A stretch of 64,000 bases of DNA from Aminithiophilus ramosus (lineage in GTDB: Bacteria > Synergistota > Synergistia > Synergistales > Aminithiophilaceae): positions 2,233,453 to 2,297,452 of the forward strand of contig NZ_CP072943.1 in assembly GCF_018069705.1 (NCBI RefSeq), given 5' to 3'. Every line of letters starts with the position of its first letter. Within the stretch, counting starts at the first letter, position 1. The notes below the pieces were generated by a model. The model was given only the letters and a program-made list of their open reading frames with translations, ran no database searches and had not been told where the DNA came from. The translations under genes and the position numbers were made by a program. This document shows, in pieces, positions 37,215 to 45,332 of the stretch.

Positions 37215-38600
37215 GTGACGACGAGAAACCACCTGCACCCCTTGGCCTGGAGCACGTTCCGGTGCCTCATTATACTCCAGCTGCTTGCCTGTTTCTCCCT
37301 CCGGGGCGGAAGGGGGCCCGCCTGGGCTCTGGCCGACCTCGATCGAATCCCCCAGGACCCCCGCTTCCTCGTTCAGGCCGACGAGGCCGAGAAGAGACTC
37401 CTCTCCCCCGAGGCCCAGGCCGAAAAAGCCGATGACTACCTCCGGCGCCACTTCGATCCCTGGCGCCGTGCCGAGGCCCGCCACAGTGCCCGGGAGGCCT
37501 TCTGGGCACTGGACCGTTACGAAAAGAGACCGGCCTGGGGAGAGAACCTTCAGCTCCGCGACCCGTCCTGGCTGGAGGACCTCGCCGCCCTCTGCGACAG
37601 GGGCAACTACCCCAGCCGGGCGGAACGGGCCGTCGCCGTCGACAACCTGGCCCTCCGAGGACTCCCCTCCGACCGTCCCCACTTCAACGACCCCGCTCTG
37701 GCCGGAGAGGGCTACCCCTTCGACAACCTTCAGAACTCGGCCGTCTGGGCCGGAACGCCCCTTCTCGTCACCCACGCCTCGTCGGACGGCTCCTGGCTCC
37801 ACGTCGAGGCACCCTTCGCCGCAGGCTGGGTCCACCCCTCTCAGATCGCCTATGTCGACGAGGCCTTCGTCAGGACCTTCATGGCAGGGCCCTTCGCCGT
37901 CGTCGCCGTCGACGACCTCGCCGTGAAGGACAGAGAGGGCCTCCACCGCTTCCGGGCCCAGACGGGAACGCTCCTCCCTCTCGTCAGGGCCGACGCCTGG
38001 CGCCTCACCGTCCGGGTCCCCTTCGGCGACGGACGGGGCGAGGCCCACCTGGCCGAGGCCGTCATCGGGCGGGGTAAGGCCCTTCCCTTCCCTCACCCCC
38101 TGACGCCGTGGAAGGTGGCCACTCTGGCCTCGCGCCTCGCCGGCCAGAGCTACGGATGGGGCGGCCTCTACGGAAACCGCGACTGCTCGGCCCTGACGCG
38201 CGATCTTTTCACCCCCTTCGGACTCTGGCTGCCGCGCAACTCGGGCGGACAGAGGCAGACAGGCCACGTCGTCGGCCTCGAGGGGCTCTCGCCCGAGGAG
38301 AAGGCGGCGGTCATCGTCGCAAGAGGCCGTCCCTTCGCCTCTCTCGTCGCCATGGCGGGCCACGTCATGGTCTACGTCGGCCAGAGGGAGGGGAAACCCC
38401 TCGTCTTCCACAACCTCTGGGGGATCAGAACGCTCGACAGGGCGGGCGTCGCCGGACGGCACGTCATCGGCCGGGCCGTCGTCACCACTCTCGAGGCGGG
38501 CCGGGAACTGCCCCTCGTCGCCCCCGGAGGCCTTCTCATCGATCGCGTCACCGAGCTGATCCTTCTGACGGATGACAGGGAGAAGGATAGAGGTCCCTGA
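37215..38600 (+). CDS. NlpC/P60 cell-wall peptidase with SH3 domains (YkfC-like)
   Basis: 461 residues. N-terminal hydrophobic segment (about 15-40), a helical stabilising domain, two SH3-like domains (about 165-300: TPLLVTHASSDGSWLHVEAPFAAGWVHPSQI), then the NlpC/P60 domain with catalytic C324 in YGNRDCSALTRD and H383 in AGHVMVYVG. Expected to cut gamma-D-glutamyl-diamino acid bonds in peptidoglycan fragments. Starts with GTG at 37215 after AAGGAGG. Confidence 0.9.
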   Translation: MTTRNHLHPLAWSTFRCLIILQLLACFSLRGGRGPAWALADLDRIPQDPRFLVQADEAEKRLLSPEAQAEKADDYLRRHFDPWRRAEARHSAREAFWALDRYEKRPAWGENLQLRDPSWLEDLAALCDRGNYPSRAERAVAVDNLALRGLPSDRPHFNDPALAGEGYPFDNLQNSAVWAGTPLLVTHASSDGSWLHVEAPFAAGWVHPSQIAYVDEAFVRTFMAGPFAVVAVDDLAVKDREGLHRFRAQTGTLLPLVRADAWRLTVRVPFGDGRGEAHLAEAVIGRGKALPFPHPLTPWKVATLASRLAGQSYGWGGLYGNRDCSALTRDLFTPFGLWLPRNSGGQRQTGHVVGLEGLSPEEKAAVIVARGRPFASLVAMAGHVMVYVGQREGKPLVFHNLWGIRTLDRAGVAGRHVIGRAVVTTLEAGRELPLVAPGGLLIDRVTELILLTDDREKDRGP

Positions 38601-38614
38601 CGTCCTTTCCCCTT

Positions 38615-38643
38615 TTGCCATCGAGACTGATCTCTGCTACAGT
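38615..38643 (+). promoter_or_regulatory. Promoter of the mrp antiporter operon
   Basis: TTGCCA (38615-38620), 17-base spacer, TACAGT (38638-38643), about 90 bases before mrpE. Confidence 0.55.
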
Positions 38644-38732
38644 TATGCAGTATTCTTGACGCCGCCGCATCACCCCTTCCGTCGCCAAGGCGACGATCTC
38701 CCGTCTCCGCAACCGGGAAAGGATGGTGCCCT

Positions 38733-39254
38733 TTGCTCGTAAGCCCCGTCAAGCCTTTCGCTCTCGGAGCTGCCCTCTTTCTGGTCTGGCTGGCGACGAC
38801 AGGCCGTCTCGATCTTCCCTTCGTCCTTCTGGGCCTGCTCGTCTGCGTCGTCGTCGTTCATCTCACCTGGTCGACCTTTTTCGCCGGAGCCCACGATTTT
38901 TCCCTGCGGGGAAAGCCCTGGCCCCGATTCCGCCTTCTGCGCCTCCTCCGCTACCCCTTCTTCTTTCTCGCCGAGCTCCTCTCGGCCACATGGGAAGTGG
39001 CCCTCCTGGCCCTGAGACCCACCGTCGACCTGCACCCGGCCATCGTCCGATTCGAAAGCGTCCTTCACAACAGGACGGCCCTGGTTCTTCTGGCCAATCA
39101 GGTCACGCTCACGCCGGGGACGTTGACCATCGACGCCGACGTCAACGATCACAGCCTTTTCGTCCACGTCCTCGACCTGGGCCAGGAGGGGCTCGACGGG
39201 GTGGACCGCGACGTCCGGACATTGGAAGATGAGATGAGGAGGGTCGTCCGATGA
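38733..39254 (+). CDS. mrpE: Na+/H+ antiporter subunit E
   Basis: 173 residues, MnhE family. Two N-terminal membrane segments, then the conserved NRTALVLLANQVTLTPGTLTIDAD stretch (split here as NRTALVLLANQ and VTLTPGTLTID). TTG at 38733 is used, with AAAGGA about 10 bases upstream. First gene of an eight-to-nine gene operon with stop/start overlaps throughout. Confidence 0.88.
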   Translation: MLVSPVKPFALGAALFLVWLATTGRLDLPFVLLGLLVCVVVVHLTWSTFFAGAHDFSLRGKPWPRFRLLRLLRYPFFFLAELLSATWEVALLALRPTVDLHPAIVRFESVLHNRTALVLLANQVTLTPGTLTIDADVNDHSLFVHVLDLGQEGLDGVDRDVRTLEDEMRRVVR

Positions 39255-39508
39255 CGGACATCGTCCTCTGGGGCCTTCTTCTCACGGCGGCCCTGGGTTT
39301 CTGGCGCGTCGTCGTCGGCCCCACGATCCCCGACCGGATCGTGGCCGCCGACACCCTTTCGACGCTTCTGACGACTTTCATCGTCCTCCTGGGCCTCCGC
39401 TTCCGCAACGCCGTCTTCCTCGACATCGCCCTGGCCTTCGCCGTCCTCTCCTTCGCCGACGTCCTCATCATGGCCAAGTACTTCGAACACGGGGAGCTCC
39501 ATCGATGA
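39251..39508 (+). CDS. mrpF: Na+/H+ antiporter subunit F
   Basis: 85 residues, three helices, R-V-GPTIPDRIVAADTL motif typical of MnhF/MrpF. ATGA overlap with mrpE and with mrpG. Confidence 0.9.
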   Translation: MTDIVLWGLLLTAALGFWRVVVGPTIPDRIVAADTLSTLLTTFIVLLGLRFRNAVFLDIALAFAVLSFADVLIMAKYFEHGELHR

Positions 39509-39855
39509 CGGCTCTTCTCGACGGTCTCGTCGCCTTCCTCATGCTCTCGGGCCTTTTTTTCGCCTTCGCCTCCGTCGTGGGCGTCATCCGCTTTCCCGAC
39601 GTCTACACCCGCCTTCACGCCTCGACGAAGGCCCTCTCGGGAGGCGCCCTTCTGATCCTCCTCGGCACGGCCCTGAAGACGGCCCTTTTCGGGAACGGAC
39701 CGGCGACGGTCAAGATCCTTCTCATCGCCGGCTTCCTCCTGGCCACGAACCCCCTGGCCTCCCACGCCATCGCCCGGGCCTGCTACCGTCACGGCATCGT
39801 CCCCCGAGGAACCGTCGACGATTACGGCAAGAGGCTGAAAGGAGACCGCCCGTGA
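39505..39855 (+). CDS. mrpG: Na+/H+ antiporter subunit G
   Basis: 116 residues, three helices. VVGVIRFPDVYTRLHASTKA is diagnostic of MnhG/MrpG. ATGA overlap with mrpF; its stop overlaps the GTG of the next gene. Confidence 0.92.
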   Translation: MTALLDGLVAFLMLSGLFFAFASVVGVIRFPDVYTRLHASTKALSGGALLILLGTALKTALFGNGPATVKILLIAGFLLATNPLASHAIARACYRHGIVPRGTVDDYGKRLKGDRP

Positions 39856-40118
39856 GCCTTCCCTTCTTCGCCTTCCTCTGCCTTTTCCTCGTCGTCACGG
39901 CCGTCACGGCCGCCGAGGCCTCGGACATGCTCAGCGCCGTCATCGCCCTCTCCGTCTTCGGCGTTCTCATGGCCACCCTCTTCGTCATCCTTCAGGCCCC
40001 CGACGTGGCCCTCACCCAGGCCATCATCAACTCGGGCCTCGTCACCTCCCTCTTCCTCGTCGCCTACAGCCAGACCCAGAAGAGGGGCGACGACCTCGAC
40101 AGGGACGGCGACCGATGA
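39852..40118 (+). CDS. MbhD-like (DUF4040) subunit, equivalent of the MrpA C-terminal part
   Basis: 88 residues, three helices. SVFGVLMATLFVILQAPDVALTQAI matches the DUF4040/MbhD domain that in classical Mrp systems is within the C-terminal part of MrpA. Here it is a stand-alone gene, as in Mrp modules of membrane-bound hydrogenases. GTG start, GTGA overlap with mrpG. Confidence 0.82.
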   Translation: MSLPFFAFLCLFLVVTAVTAAEASDMLSAVIALSVFGVLMATLFVILQAPDVALTQAIINSGLVTSLFLVAYSQTQKRGDDLDRDGDR

Positions 40119-40858
40119 GAGGCAGAGACTTCCAGAAGCTGGGCGCCCTCGCCCTGGCCCTGACCCTGGGGGGCTGGCTCTGGCGGGGCGTGACGCTCAG
40201 CCCCTATCAGGGGATAACGGGACCGGCGGCCCGCTACATCCTCAGGACGGCCGAGGAGACGGGCGCCTCCAACGTCGTCGCCGCCATCCTCTTCGACTAC
40301 CGCGGCTTCGACACCCTGGGCGAGGCCTCCGTCATCTACACCACCGTCTGCGGCGTGGCCCTCCTGTTCGCCAAACGGCGCTACCGGAGATCCTCTCACG
40401 GTCTCTCCTTCATCGTGAAGCGGGGCATGGCCCTCCTCGTCCCCTTCATCCTCCTCTACGCCTCGTCGATCATCGTCATGGGGCACCTCTCTCCCGGCGG
40501 CGGCTTCCAGGGCGGGGCCGTCATGGCCACCGTGACCGTCCTCTTCTGCGTCGTCTACGGATCGAGCTTCGAGGCGGCCCGGGTCAACCCGAAGGTGAAG
40601 GAGACCATCGAGTCGCTGGGAGCCCTGCTCTTCCTCGTCGTCGGTCTCGTCGGCCTCTGGGCCGGAGGGGAGTTCCTCTCCAACGGCGCCGCAGGCTTTC
40701 ACCTGGGAACTCGGGGGCACCTTTTCAGCGGCGGAACGATTCCCCTCCTCAACGTCGCCGTGGGGATGAAGGTCGGGGCCGGCCTGTCCACCCTCTTCTA
40801 CAGCATGGTCAAGATCCTCGAAGACCCGACGGAAAGCTCCCCGGAGGTGCCCTCCTGA
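40115..40858 (+). CDS. mrpB: Na+/H+ antiporter subunit B with MbhE-like N-terminus
   Basis: 247 residues, longer than the usual 140. N-terminal about 95 residues look like the MbhE part (YRGFDTLGEASVIYTTVCGVALL); the C-terminal part is the MnhB domain with GHLSPGGGFQGGAVMATV. Both come from the C-terminal end of MrpA plus MrpB in classical systems. ATGA overlap upstream. Confidence 0.88.
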   Translation: MRGRDFQKLGALALALTLGGWLWRGVTLSPYQGITGPAARYILRTAEETGASNVVAAILFDYRGFDTLGEASVIYTTVCGVALLFAKRRYRRSSHGLSFIVKRGMALLVPFILLYASSIIVMGHLSPGGGFQGGAVMATVTVLFCVVYGSSFEAARVNPKVKETIESLGALLFLVVGLVGLWAGGEFLSNGAAGFHLGTRGHLFSGGTIPLLNVAVGMKVGAGLSTLFYSMVKILEDPTESSPEVPS

Positions 40859-41202
40859 TGACCCTTCTGAGCCTCAGCTACGGCACGGCCATCGTCGTCT
40901 TCGCCATCGGCCTCTACACGCTCCTCTCCAAGAGGAACCTCTTCAAGACCGTCATCGCCCTCTCTCTCATGGAGGGCGGCGTCCTGCTCCTCATCACCGC
41001 CTCGGGCTACGTGCCCGGAGGCGTCCCGGCCCTTCTCCCCTTTCTCGGAGCCGAACCCGTCAACCCCCTGCCCCACTCCTTCACCCTGACGGCCATCGTC
41101 ATCGGAGCCGCCGACGTCGCCCTGGCCCTGGCTTTCATCATCAAGATCCACCGCCGCTACGGCACCGTCGACATCGACAGGATCAGGGGACTTCGGGGAT
41201 GA
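40858..41202 (+). CDS. mrpC: Na+/H+ antiporter subunit C
   Basis: 114 residues, three helices, NuoK-like. LYTLLSKRNLFKTVIALSLMEGGVLL and TAIVIGAADVALALAFI are typical. TGATG overlap with mrpB. Confidence 0.92.
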   Translation: MTLLSLSYGTAIVVFAIGLYTLLSKRNLFKTVIALSLMEGGVLLLITASGYVPGGVPALLPFLGAEPVNPLPHSFTLTAIVIGAADVALALAFIIKIHRRYGTVDIDRIRGLRG

Positions 41203-42662
41203 CGCCCGTTCTGGCCATCATCGCCCCCTTCTCGGCGGCCTTCGCCATTCCCCTCTTTTTCGTCTTCCGAAAAGAACTTCTCGGCTTTTCCGTTTTCGCC
41301 TTCGGCGCCGTATCGACTCTGACGACCCTCGCCGTCGCCGCCAAAGGGCATTCGGGCCTCGTCTCCGTCATGGGAGGATGGTCACCCGAAACGGGCATCG
41401 CCCTCGTCGTCGACAACCTGTCGGCCGCCTTCCTGCTGCTGGCGACGATCGGCTTTTCCGTCTCCCTCGCCGCCTCCGTCGAGACCTTCGGCTACGGCCC
41501 CTGGCGCTTCTACGTCCTCTTCTTCCTCAGCTGGGCCGCCACCAACGGCATCCTTCTCACGGGCGATCTCTTCAACCTCTTCGTCTTCTTCGAGATCTTC
41601 TCCGTCGCGGCCTATCTCGTCGTCGCCTTCCCCCCCCGGTCGTGGCAGGCCGTCGAGGCGGGCTTCAAGTATCTCGTCTTCGGCACCGTCGGAGCCCTCT
41701 TCCTCCTCCTGGGCATCGCCTACGCCTTCATGGCCACGGGACAGCTCAACATGGCCATCCTGGCCCGCGTCCTCCCCACGGCCCCTCCCGCCACGATCTC
41801 CGTCGTCATCGGCTGCCTCGTCGTGGGACTCTTCGTCAAAAGCGGCACCGTGCCGGGCCACTTCTGGCTTCCCGACGCCCACTCCTCGGCTCAGACTCCC
41901 GTCAGCGCCCTCCTCTCGGGCGTCTTCGTCAAGGCCTCCGTCTACGTCCTTCTCCGCCTCTCCTTCCTCCTCTTCGCCGTCGCCGACGCCAAGATCTATT
42001 CCATTCTTCTCCTCTTCGGGACGCTCTCCCTCTGTCTGGGACACCTCATGGCCTTCCAGCAGGAGGACATCAAGCGCCTCCTGGCCTATTCCACCGTGGC
42101 CCAGGTGGGGACGATCCTCATCGGTATCGGCTGCGCCTCGCCCGGCGGCGCCGCCGCCGCCGTCTATCATTCCTTCAACCACATGGCGGCCAAGATGGGC
42201 CTCTTCCTCGTCGCCGGGGCCCTGGCCGAGGACCGGGCCAGTCGCGACATCGATCAGATGAGGGGCCTTTTCGGCCACAACCCGGCCTACGTCCTCGCCT
42301 TCTGTCTTTTCGCCGCCTCCATCGCCGGGATTCCCCCCCTGAGCGGGTTCATGAGCAAGTGGTTCCTCCTCGTCGCCGCCGCCGACGCCCGGGCCTTCGT
42401 TCCCGCCGTCGCCGTCGCCGCCGGAACGGTCCTTTCGGCGGCCTACTATTTCCGGGTCCTGAGAGCCTTCTTCTCCCCTTCCGAGACGGCTCCCCCCCAC
42501 CACCGACCCCGCCCCGTCAAGAACGTTCTCGTCGCCCTTCTCGTCGCCCTCTCCCTCTTCCTGGCCGCCCTTCCCTACATCCCGACCTTCCGGGACGGTC
42601 TCTTCGCCATCGGATCGACGGCCTTCGACCGCGAGGGCTACATCGAAAGGGTCCTTCCATGA
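41199..42662 (+). CDS. mrpD: Na+/H+ antiporter subunit D (proton-translocating, NuoN/M-like)
   Basis: 487 residues, about 14 helices. The conserved Glu in LFVFFEIFSVAAYLVVA and the Lys helix GLFVKSGTVPGHFWLPDAHSSAQTPVSALLSGV (split here: LFVKSGTVPGHFWLPDAHS) are present, as is KRLLAYSTVAQVG. ATGA overlap with mrpC. Confidence 0.93.
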   Translation: MTPVLAIIAPFSAAFAIPLFFVFRKELLGFSVFAFGAVSTLTTLAVAAKGHSGLVSVMGGWSPETGIALVVDNLSAAFLLLATIGFSVSLAASVETFGYGPWRFYVLFFLSWAATNGILLTGDLFNLFVFFEIFSVAAYLVVAFPPRSWQAVEAGFKYLVFGTVGALFLLLGIAYAFMATGQLNMAILARVLPTAPPATISVVIGCLVVGLFVKSGTVPGHFWLPDAHSSAQTPVSALLSGVFVKASVYVLLRLSFLLFAVADAKIYSILLLFGTLSLCLGHLMAFQQEDIKRLLAYSTVAQVGTILIGIGCASPGGAAAAVYHSFNHMAAKMGLFLVAGALAEDRASRDIDQMRGLFGHNPAYVLAFCLFAASIAGIPPLSGFMSKWFLLVAAADARAFVPAVAVAAGTVLSAAYYFRVLRAFFSPSETAPPHHRPRPVKNVLVALLVALSLFLAALPYIPTFRDGLFAIGSTAFDREGYIERVLP

Positions 42663-42892
42663 TCGACGGCCTCTCCCTCTCCATGGCGGCCCTGGCCTGC
42701 CTCGTGACCCTGCCGGTCTCCCTCTGGAGCTGGAGCGACGGAGGCGGGGCAAGACTCCTCCCCTGGCTCTTCTGCCTCTGCGCCCTGGCGGCCGTGACCG
42801 CCTCCGACTGGCTGACCTTCATCGTCTTCCTCGAACTCTCCTCGCTGGCCCTCTTCTTCCGAGACCGACGCAGATCTCTTCAAGGAGCGTGA
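42659..42892 (+). CDS. Short MrpD-like N-terminal fragment, duplicate of the next gene's start
   Basis: 77 residues, two to three helices. Its residues align with the first 90 of the downstream antiporter gene: both have MI-DGLSL, LPLWLFC/LPWLFC, ADWLTFI and FLELS, and end after the FFRDRRR/VVVRRRDEE point. It keeps ATG with ATGA overlap to mrpD and stops 3 bases before the next gene. It looks like a truncated tandem duplication, though as an intact short membrane protein it may have a role. Confidence 0.75.
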   Translation: MIDGLSLSMAALACLVTLPVSLWSWSDGGGARLLPWLFCLCALAAVTASDWLTFIVFLELSSLALFFRDRRRSLQGA

Positions 42893-42895
42893 CCG

Positions 42896-44302
42896 ATGAT
42901 TCGACCTGACGGACTCTCCCTCGTCATGATCGTCCTGGCTCTTTTCATGACGCTCTGCGCCGCCCTCTACCGATGGACCAAGGAGAGCGGGCCGCCGTCG
43001 GACCGGGGAGGCGCCCTCCCCCTCTGGCTCTTCTGCCTTTTCGCCTCCCTGGCGGCCCTGGCCGCGGACTGGCTCACCTTCATCATCTTTCTCGAACTCT
43101 CCACTCTCTCCCTCTTCGTCGTCGTCCGCCGCCGCGACGAGGAAACGGCCCTTTTTTTCCTCCTCTCCCAGCTGACGGGGGCCTCCGTCCTCTTCGTCGC
43201 CGCGGCCCTGGCCTCCTCCTCAGGACTGCCTCCTGCCATGGGCCCCGTGCCGGAGAAACTCTTTCCCCTCTTCGTTGCGGGACTGGGCGTCAAGGCCGCC
43301 CTGCCCGGCCTCCATTTCTGGCTCCCCCGGACACACGCCGCGGCCCCGACGGAGGCCAGCGCCCTCCTGTCGGGCTACGCCGTCAAAATGGCCATCTACG
43401 GCCTTCTGCGTCTCGCCGGCGGGCCGTCGACGCCCCTCGTCGCCATCGGCGTCGTCATGGCTCTCTACGGCGTCGTCCAGGCCCTGATGCAGCACGATGG
43501 GAAACGGCTCCTGGCCTACCACACGGTGAGTCAGCTGGGCTTCATCGTCGCCGCCCTCGCCACGGGAACGACCCTGGGTCGGACGGCGGCCCTCCTTCAC
43601 GTCGTCGCCCACGCCCTCTTCAAGGGCCTTCTCTTCCTCTCGGCAGGAAGTCTGGAAAAACTCTACGGCAGCCGGGACCTGGCCGAGCTGGGACGGGCCG
43701 GGAGGGAGGCGCCCCTCCTCTTCGGCCTCTTCCTCGTCGGAGCCACGGCCATCACCGGCTGCCCTCTCACGAGCGGCTACATGACCAAAATCGTCATCAA
43801 AACGTCTCTCTCCGAATATCCCCCGGCCCTCTGGGGGCTTCAGCTGGCCGGAGTGGGGACGACCCTTTCCTTCTGCAAGTTCGGCTACTACGGCTTCTTC
43901 CGCCCCTCCGGACCGGACGGAGGGCGGAGCCTCTCGGGAAAGCTGGAGAGGTCCTCCTACCTGTCCATGACCCTTCTCGCCCTGGCGACGGTCGCCTTCG
44001 GCGCGACTCCCTTCGTCCGGCCCCTTCTCCCCTTTCCCGCCGAAAGGCTCCTCTCGGCCGAGGCCCTTGTCGGGAGCCTCATTCCCCTCGCCGCGGGCCT
44101 CCTTCTCTTCGTCGGCCTGCGCTCTTCCCTCCGCCCCGGGAAAGGAGACGTACCCGACGCCGAAGACCTCCTCGTCCCGGCTGGGAGGCTCGCCTCCGTC
44201 CCCCTCCTTTTCATGAGGGCCCTCCACACGGGGAGACTGAGGACCTATCTGGCCCTGCTTGTGGCCGCCCTCCTCTCCGTCTTTCAGGTCCTCATGCCCT
44301 GA
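42896..44302 (+). CDS. Second MrpD/MrpA-type proton-translocating antiporter subunit
   Basis: 468 residues, about 14 helices. FLELSTLSLFVVV has the key Glu; GVKAALPGLHFWLPRTHAAA is the Lys helix; KRLLAYHTVSQLGFIVAAL follows. It probably takes the place of the ion-pumping N-terminal domain of MrpA, which is otherwise missing from the operon. Last gene before a long hairpin. Confidence 0.88.
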   Translation: MIRPDGLSLVMIVLALFMTLCAALYRWTKESGPPSDRGGALPLWLFCLFASLAALAADWLTFIIFLELSTLSLFVVVRRRDEETALFFLLSQLTGASVLFVAAALASSSGLPPAMGPVPEKLFPLFVAGLGVKAALPGLHFWLPRTHAAAPTEASALLSGYAVKMAIYGLLRLAGGPSTPLVAIGVVMALYGVVQALMQHDGKRLLAYHTVSQLGFIVAALATGTTLGRTAALLHVVAHALFKGLLFLSAGSLEKLYGSRDLAELGRAGREAPLLFGLFLVGATAITGCPLTSGYMTKIVIKTSLSEYPPALWGLQLAGVGTTLSFCKFGYYGFFRPSGPDGGRSLSGKLERSSYLSMTLLALATVAFGATPFVRPLLPFPAERLLSAEALVGSLIPLAAGLLLFVGLRSSLRPGKGDVPDAEDLLVPAGRLASVPLLFMRALHTGRLRTYLALLVAALLSVFQVLMP

Positions 44303-44318
44303 CCTCCGGGACAGATCC

Positions 44319-44371
44319 GCTCGCTACAAGGAGGCCCCCCTCGTTTCGAGGGGGGCCTCCTTGTAGCGAGC
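44319..44371. terminator. Long perfect hairpin between the mrp operon and the convergent qmcA gene
   Basis: Perfect 25-base arms (44319-44343 and 44347-44371), loop TTT. It fills the space between the two convergent stop codons and has no T-run. Fourth of five similar elements in this window. Confidence 0.65.
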
Positions 44372-44375
44372 GCCG

Positions 44376-45332
44376 TCAGGCTTTTTCCGGTTTTCCGGTG
44401 AAGATCTCCTTCAGGCCGCCCAGCGAGCCGAGAAGGGCCGTCGCCTCGTAGGGAAGGTAGACGACCTTGTTGTCCCTGCCGCTGACCATCTCGTGCAGGG
44501 TCTCCATGTACTTGAGGGCGATGAGATACTGCGTCGGGTCGCCGCCTGCGGCCTTGACGGCCTCGGCGATGGAGGCGATGGCCTCGGCCTCGGCCGTGGC
44601 CTGGCGGACGCGGGCCTGGGCCCGGGCCTCGGCGTTGAGGATGAGGGCCTCTTTCTCTCCCTCGGCCCTGTTGATCTGGGCCTGCTGCCCCCCTTCGGCC
44701 TCGAGGATCTGGGCCCGTTTCTGCCCCTCGGCCTCGGTGACGCGGGCCCTACGGGAGCGCTCCGACTCCATCTGCTTCTGCATGGCCGTCTGGACCGACT
44801 CGGGCGGGTTGACGTCCTGGATCTCGACGCGCGTCACCTTGACGCCCCAGGCGTCGGTGGCCTCGTCGAGGGTGACGCGAAGCCTCTCGTTGATCTCGGC
44901 CCGCTTGCTGAGAATCTCGTCGAGGTCCATCTCGCCCATGACGCTTCGCAGCGACGTCTGGGTCAGTTTTTCCAGGGCCAGGGGGAGGTTGGCGATTTCG
45001 TAGACGGCCTTGAAGGGATTGTTGATCTGGAAGTAGAGAAGGGCGTTGATCTCCATGAAGACGTTGTCGCGGGAGATGACGTTCTGGCGGGGAAAGTCGT
45101 AGACCTGCTCCCTCATGTCGAGCTTGCTCGTCGGCCTCGTCCCCTTTCCGGCGACGATCCAGACGATGGATTTTTCCCTGTCCAGGATGGGAAAGATGAC
45201 GTTGATGCCCGGTTCGAGGATCTTGTGGAACTTGCCCAGCCGCTCGATGATGACGCGCTGGGACTGGGGAACGATGCGGATCCCCGATACGACGAGAATG
45301 ACGACGAGGGCGACCAGAGCCAGTATGACCAT
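44376..45332 (-). CDS. qmcA: SPFH/stomatin-like membrane protein (QmcA family)
   Basis: 318 residues. N-terminal transmembrane helix (1-18), SPFH domain (IVPQSQRVIIERLGKFHKIL, PGINVIFPILD), then an alanine/glutamate-rich coiled coil (about 190-265). Forms large oligomers in membrane microdomains. ATG at 45332 with AAGGAGGA. Paired with the NfeD gene upstream, the usual arrangement. Confidence 0.93.
   Translation of the reverse strand: MVILALVALVVILVVSGIRIVPQSQRVIIERLGKFHKILEPGINVIFPILDREKSIVWIVAGKGTRPTSKLDMREQVYDFPRQNVISRDNVFMEINALLYFQINNPFKAVYEIANLPLALEKLTQTSLRSVMGEMDLDEILSKRAEINERLRVTLDEATDAWGVKVTRVEIQDVNPPESVQTAMQKQMESERSRRARVTEAEGQKRAQILEAEGGQQAQINRAEGEKEALILNAEARAQARVRQATAEAEAIASIAEAVKAAGGDPTQYLIALKYMETLHEMVSGRDNKVVYLPYEATALLGSLGGLKEIFTGKPEKA

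Follow-up and report, generated by a model that had tools for sequence, protein, structure and literature searches.

The window analysed here is a stretch of 64,000 nucleotides (G+C 63.6%) from the 3.1-Mb single-contig genome of Aminithiophilus ramosus, and all positions are counted from its first letter. It carries an Mrp-type antiporter operon on the + strand with the gene order E, F, G, DUF4040, B, C, D, stub, D2, the stub being a 77-codon open reading frame (ORF) that lies between two intact genes encoding MrpD-like subunits.

38733..41202, + strand: operon genes upstream of mrpD, assigned by NCBIfam matches
begins 38733, + strand: E (NCBIfam match)
begins 39251, + strand: F (NCBIfam match)
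begins 39505, + strand: G (NCBIfam match)
begins 39852, + strand: DUF4040 / MrpA-C-terminal-like (NCBIfam match)
begins 40115, + strand: B (NCBIfam match)
begins 40858, + strand: C (NCBIfam match)
41199..42662, + strand: mrpD (D), 487 aa, intact; its stop codon overlaps the stub start (ATGA)
42659..42892, + strand: stub ORF, 77 codons; very probably the remnant of a middle MrpD-like tandem gene, mid
42896..44302, + strand: D2 (P0001), second intact MrpD-like subunit, 468 aa; starts at the third helix of MrpD

The stub and its likeness to D2

The stub starts with ATG at 42659, within the ATGA shared with mrpD, and stops with TGA at 42890-42892, 3 nt before the ATG of D2. An AAGGAG sequence (42882-42887) precedes D2. 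At the protein level the stub resembles D2 far beyond chance (61% identity over stub residues 3-74, E 6.0e-15 in a whole-genome search), and at the DNA level a 72-nt stretch is 79% identical and in register. The original prediction thus rightly aligned the stub with the start of the following gene and placed its end after the second or third helix, three helices equivalent to the first three of D2 being predicted. The motifs on which that alignment had been based are present and are in part family-wide.

D and D2 both belong to the MrpD / MbhH / NuoM-N-type antiporter-like subunits, scoring 234.7 and 128.5 bits, respectively, against PF00361 (cut-off 21.5 bits). The stub, in contrast, corresponds to the first three D2 helices only and stays below the cut-offs in Pfam (PF00662, 13.4 against 24.5 bits) and in NCBIfam (NF009310, 17.7 against 564 bits). 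Among the operon genes examined (38733-44302) no separate NuoL-like MrpA core was recognised; a short DUF4040 protein is present. D2 may stand in for the NuoL-like core.

The position between D and D2 in related genomes

The family is represented in our collection by four genomes: that of the window (G000), a second one of the same species (G061), and one each of two further species of the same genus (G001 and G002). In G002 (MAG3 JKF15_8) a complete MrpD-like gene of 454 aa, named mid, lies between D and D2 with the same neighbours. Its ATG overlaps the stop codon of D as in the window, and a 40-nt spacer separates it from D2. Within the genus the intact mid is known from this single MAG, which is 82% complete. 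By BLASTN, the collinear blocks of the window and G002 meet at window positions 42859/42882, with approximately 201 nt collinear before the gap. In the best split alignment 1162 bp of G002 are without counterpart in the window, corresponding to approximately 387 of the 454 mid codons; exact breakpoints and any micro-homology lie beyond reach at the high divergence between the two sequences. The region of the stub is accordingly divided as follows.

42659..42859, + strand: retained 5' part of mid, approximately 67 codons, including Glu59; its predicted helices correspond to TM3-TM5
42860..42881, + strand: deletion junction zone; compared with G002, approximately 1.16 kb are absent; breakpoint placed to within about 15-20 nt
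42882..42895, + strand: AAGGAG ribosome-binding-like sequence and D2 spacer; supplies the stub stop codon TGA; common to G001 and G002 before D2

G001 shows the same position at a further stage. There the collinear blocks meet at window positions 42675/42882, 1297 bp are absent, and the slot contains a 34-codon ORF only, in which about 20 codons of mid are joined to sequence around the old stop codon. The first 60 nt of this short remnant agree with the start of G002 mid in 46 positions, a value reached by none of 2000 codon shuffles; of the 43 nt preceding D2, 39 are identical to the G002 sequence that runs from the stop codon of mid to D2. The left breakpoint of the deletion thus differs between G001 and the window species.

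We conclude that the 77-codon ORF is very probably the 5' remnant of the deleted middle tandem gene mid, that is, ordinary gene loss caught part-way. The ancestor of the genus would have had three MrpD-like genes in a row, D, mid and D2, closing the operon. In the window species a deletion of approximately 1.16 kb would have removed the part of mid between about codon 68 and the vicinity of the stop codon. Roughly the first 67 codons would remain, extended by some 10 codons that derive from the junction and the spacer and end in a stop 3 nt before D2. In G001 a separate, larger deletion would have removed more of mid, while G002 would have retained it. The locus has two features expected of a gene remnant: an intact homologue in the same place of a relative, namely the 454-aa mid of G002, and the loss of most of the coding sequence and of the functional residues, including all six invariant Lys columns. 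The original prediction had left a choice between a recent truncation and a retained micro-subunit, both under the label of a tandem N-terminal duplication. Truncation is borne out by the full-length mid in the exact slot of G002. The label itself has to be given up, since synteny and the tree described below make the stub the 5' end of a distinct and older paralogue of full length.

An assembly or sequencing error that split a full-length gene is an explanation to which we give next to no credence. No support for it was found; approximately 1.16 kb of coding sequence are absent rather than frame-shifted, and the same structure occurs in a second, non-identical assembly. That assembly, strain L-13 (Synergistota bacterium, GenBank CP074691.1), which we take to be A. 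ramosus, carries an identical stub and is 99.94% identical to the window over 13.6 kb, the 8 differing positions all lying outside window positions 42641-42960. G061 is evidently the L-13 genome: the match coordinates agree, so the two count as one further assembly and not as two. The genome-contig search returned two loci only.

Across the order, stub matches at E <= 0.001 were found at 29 places in 19 of 180 genomes. Two of these places are the stub itself (G000 and G061), both in the window's species, and each of the other 27 lies within a longer D2 match of at least 215 residues. The two shortest D2 matches, in G133 and G034, both stop early, the latter at a contig end. Since the stub itself sits within a 600-codon open frame, the length of the open frame is a poor criterion for a free-standing stub. 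Outside the window's species no free-standing stub was seen in the 180 genomes, a search within whose reach a remnant of the size found in G001 does not fall. A conserved small membrane subunit would be kept as a short ORF across species, whereas this one occurs in 2 of 180 genomes and in one species.

As a separate observation made by eye, G001 and G002 have an ORF on the opposite strand after D2, presumably serine-hydrolase-like; no such ORF is listed behind D2 in the window. The G002 MAG shows it as two overlapping ORFs.

L063 5909-7096, - strand: serine-hydrolase-like ORF after D2 (G001/G002)
L064 2566-3752, + strand: serine-hydrolase-like ORF after D2 (G001/G002)

Ancestry of the stub and number of MrpD-like genes

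A tree of 25 full-length rows places G002 mid in one group (support 99/98) together with copies one and two of G042 and the first copy each of G047, G022 and G014, separate from the D2 proteins of the genus (100/99). When the 67 retained residues of the stub are added, the stub pairs with G002 mid (97/97) inside the mid-type clade (98/98), and the three D2 of the genus cluster with 100/100. By itself the tree suggests a mid-type origin of the stub; synteny decides it.

That the first 70 or so codons of D2 were copied in front of D2, a partial tandem duplication, appears highly unlikely, even if several features are in its favour. Over 67 codons the stub protein shares 64% of its residues with the D2 beside it and 54% with G002 mid, so that its identity to D2, 61-64% depending on the range compared, is the higher one. 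The in-register 72-nt repeat at 79% is a further such feature. The AU test does not reject a tree in which the stub is forced together with all D2 of the genus (cost 12.1 log units, p 0.08), and forcing it together with the window D2 is only just rejected (cost 17.4 log units, p 0.045). A partial duplicate, however, should nest with its own D2 and have no other source gene in the slot. Here a full-length gene occupies the slot of G002 between collinear flanks, and the tree pairs the stub with that gene at 97/97. We rejected the partial duplication mainly on synteny, the AU tests alone being marginal. The closer likeness to D2 we read as ancestral motifs combined with the long branch of G002 mid. 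The stub may also have undergone some gene conversion from D2, which would leave its origin unchanged.

Under loss of mid, the preferred reading, the distribution of the copies also gives an order of events. Mid-type copies occur in another family, f4 (G042, G014, G022 and G047), so the tandem array would be older than the genus. In the D-protein tree G001 pairs with G002 and the window species falls outside (96/100); because mid is intact in G002, it would have been lost twice, in the window species and in G001. The number of D2-type copies after D varies: it is three in G042, two in G014, G022 and G047, and one in G003, G026 and G011.

L065 5861-10336: D2-type copy-number locus
L066, L067 and L068: D2-type copy-number loci
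L069, L070 and L071: D2-type copy-number loci

Open frame, predicted fold and possible roles

The original prediction had taken translational coupling and codon quality as signs of either recent truncation or a retained micro-subunit. The overlap with D is real, as is a gene-like GC3 of 0.846, although an end near the D2 start would be found whatever the frame: past the junction each of the three frames runs into a stop in the interval from 6 nt upstream to about 14 nt downstream of the first D2 base, so near-coupling to D2 is expected in any of them. Retention of the frame at the junction was for this reason rejected as a sign of selection. Openness as such was rejected as well, since 636 of 800 off-frame 77-codon stretches of gene D are likewise stop-free; in this GC-rich DNA openness over 77 codons is common, and the open frame is weak evidence for selection. 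In simulations an unconstrained stub was still open after 20 substitutions in 43-54% of the runs and after 65 substitutions in 12-22%.

For the stub against G002 mid, omega was 0.63 (95% interval 0.34-1.15), a wide interval from 67 codons. The same region of the intact D2 gave 0.47 (0.24-0.86) against G002 and 0.60 (0.32-1.10) against G001. The stub value agrees equally well with weak constraint and with a truncation that came late on the branch. A comparison with relatives had been proposed at the outset, a full-length gene in this place and neutral decay of the fragment being the outcome that would contradict a retained subunit. The full-length gene is there in G002; as to neutral decay, the omega of the stub is similar to that of the corresponding region in intact D2 genes.

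In a single-sequence model with a mean pLDDT of only 66, three helices are predicted for the stub (3-25, 34-48 and 51-76). They are equivalent to the helices 6-26, 34-54 and 59-78 with which the D2 model (13 rows, mean pLDDT 86) begins. The D2 model matches Mrp A and D, MbhH, formate hydrogenlyase and the antiporter-like chains of complex I. It aligns to MbhH (6cfw_H) from residue 85 of the latter onward, which puts the start of D2 at about the third MrpD helix. All D2-type homologues aligned (L063-L071) start at this point or a few residues before it. The stub equals D2 residues 1 to about 76, which are TM3-TM5 in the usual numbering, where, according to the part of PMC7684303 available, the repeats are TMH4-8 and TMH9-13 with TMH7 and TMH12 broken. 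In the D2 model the broken helices adjoin K133 and K298. MrpD-type subunits have two five-helix repeats, the two broken helices and charged residues, whereas the stub ends after the equivalent of TM5. Of the conserved charged residues of the repeats it has the Glu only: Glu59 falls in the D2 E67 column, invariant in 13 rows, and the six Lys that never vary in 13 full-length relatives (D2 K133, K164, K243, K298, K302 and K328) are all missing. From the predicted fold, neither half-channel could be formed by the stub. Its product cannot be an antiporter subunit, though translation of the stub into a membrane peptide of three helices may still take place.

Such a three-helix peptide with its Glu might stay in the complex, for instance between D and D2, where it would serve as a spacer or in assembly, a retention that we regard as decidedly improbable. 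The open frame, the overlapping start codon, the AAGGAG before D2, the GC3 of 0.846 and an omega of 0.63 (0.34-1.15) would agree with a micro-subunit, as would the identity of the stub in strain L-13. Against it, G001 retains about 20 codons only, the six Lys invariant in the full-length family are all gone, and a free stub was seen in none of the other genomes among the 180. Moreover, openness over 77 codons is common (636/800) and survives 20 random substitutions in 43-54% of simulations. With the slot nearly empty in G001 and the gene intact in G002, the retained micro-subunit of the original prediction is unsupported. The more specific idea that, after loss of about 85% of the subunit, the 77-residue peptide was put to use as a plug or assembly spacer between D and D2, an accessory micro-subunit, seems to us very improbable.

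Somewhat less improbable, and still unlikely, is a translation relay in which the peptide is irrelevant and the start/stop overlaps carry ribosomes from D to D2. The ATGA overlap with D and TGACCGATG into D2 would suit this role, and the G001 remnant ends at the same TGA, though only one in three frames would do so. D2, however, has its own AAGGAG in the window, G001 and G002. The 40 nt between mid and D2 in G002 imply that tight coupling is unneeded there, and in the window a stop close to the D2 start would be met in any frame. For the remnant of mid, the reading we prefer, a peptide without function under selection would be expected.

Compared with deletion pseudogenes of bacteria, the locus has the same elements, a truncated gene, an intact homologue in a relative and different stages in sister species, and shows no notable difference. 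Repeated mrpD genes are described, in the part of PMC5703873 available, for the mrp operons of Synechocystis sp. PCC 6803 and of Aphanothece halophytica (mrpCD1D2EFGAB). The genes described here are alike in this repetition, but differ in that as many as three D2-type copies follow D (G042), that these copies begin at the third helix, and that in two species of one genus one of them has been deleted. The sulfane sulfur reductase MBS likewise has two MrpD-like subunits that arose by gene duplication, MbsH and MbsH', and each is proposed to hold a proton pump, as given in the accessible sections of PMC7684303; here, in contrast, electron-transfer subunits were not recognised among the operon genes examined. 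Among the titles and abstract openings seen for Aminithiophilus, Mrp/MrpD duplication, Synergistetes Mrp and gene remnants, no paper on this locus was found.

Taken alone, the finding is of little import: it accounts for an odd small ORF, which should not be annotated as a subunit. A single genus with three MrpD-like subunits, two plus a stub, or two is of modest wider value, as a natural series for studying the effect of proton-path subunit number on an Mrp-type complex.

A scan of positions 38500-44600 gave a single promoter-like site, which lies upstream of E at 38615; the surroundings of the stub had none. The three terminator-like sites in the same range did not exceed shuffles (mean 4.4). 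Between the end of D2 and a convergent gene (44376-45332), which by eye we take to be of SPFH type, lies a perfect 26-bp inverted repeat with a 3-nt loop (44318-44372); although absent from the terminator-scan list, it is perhaps a two-way terminator.
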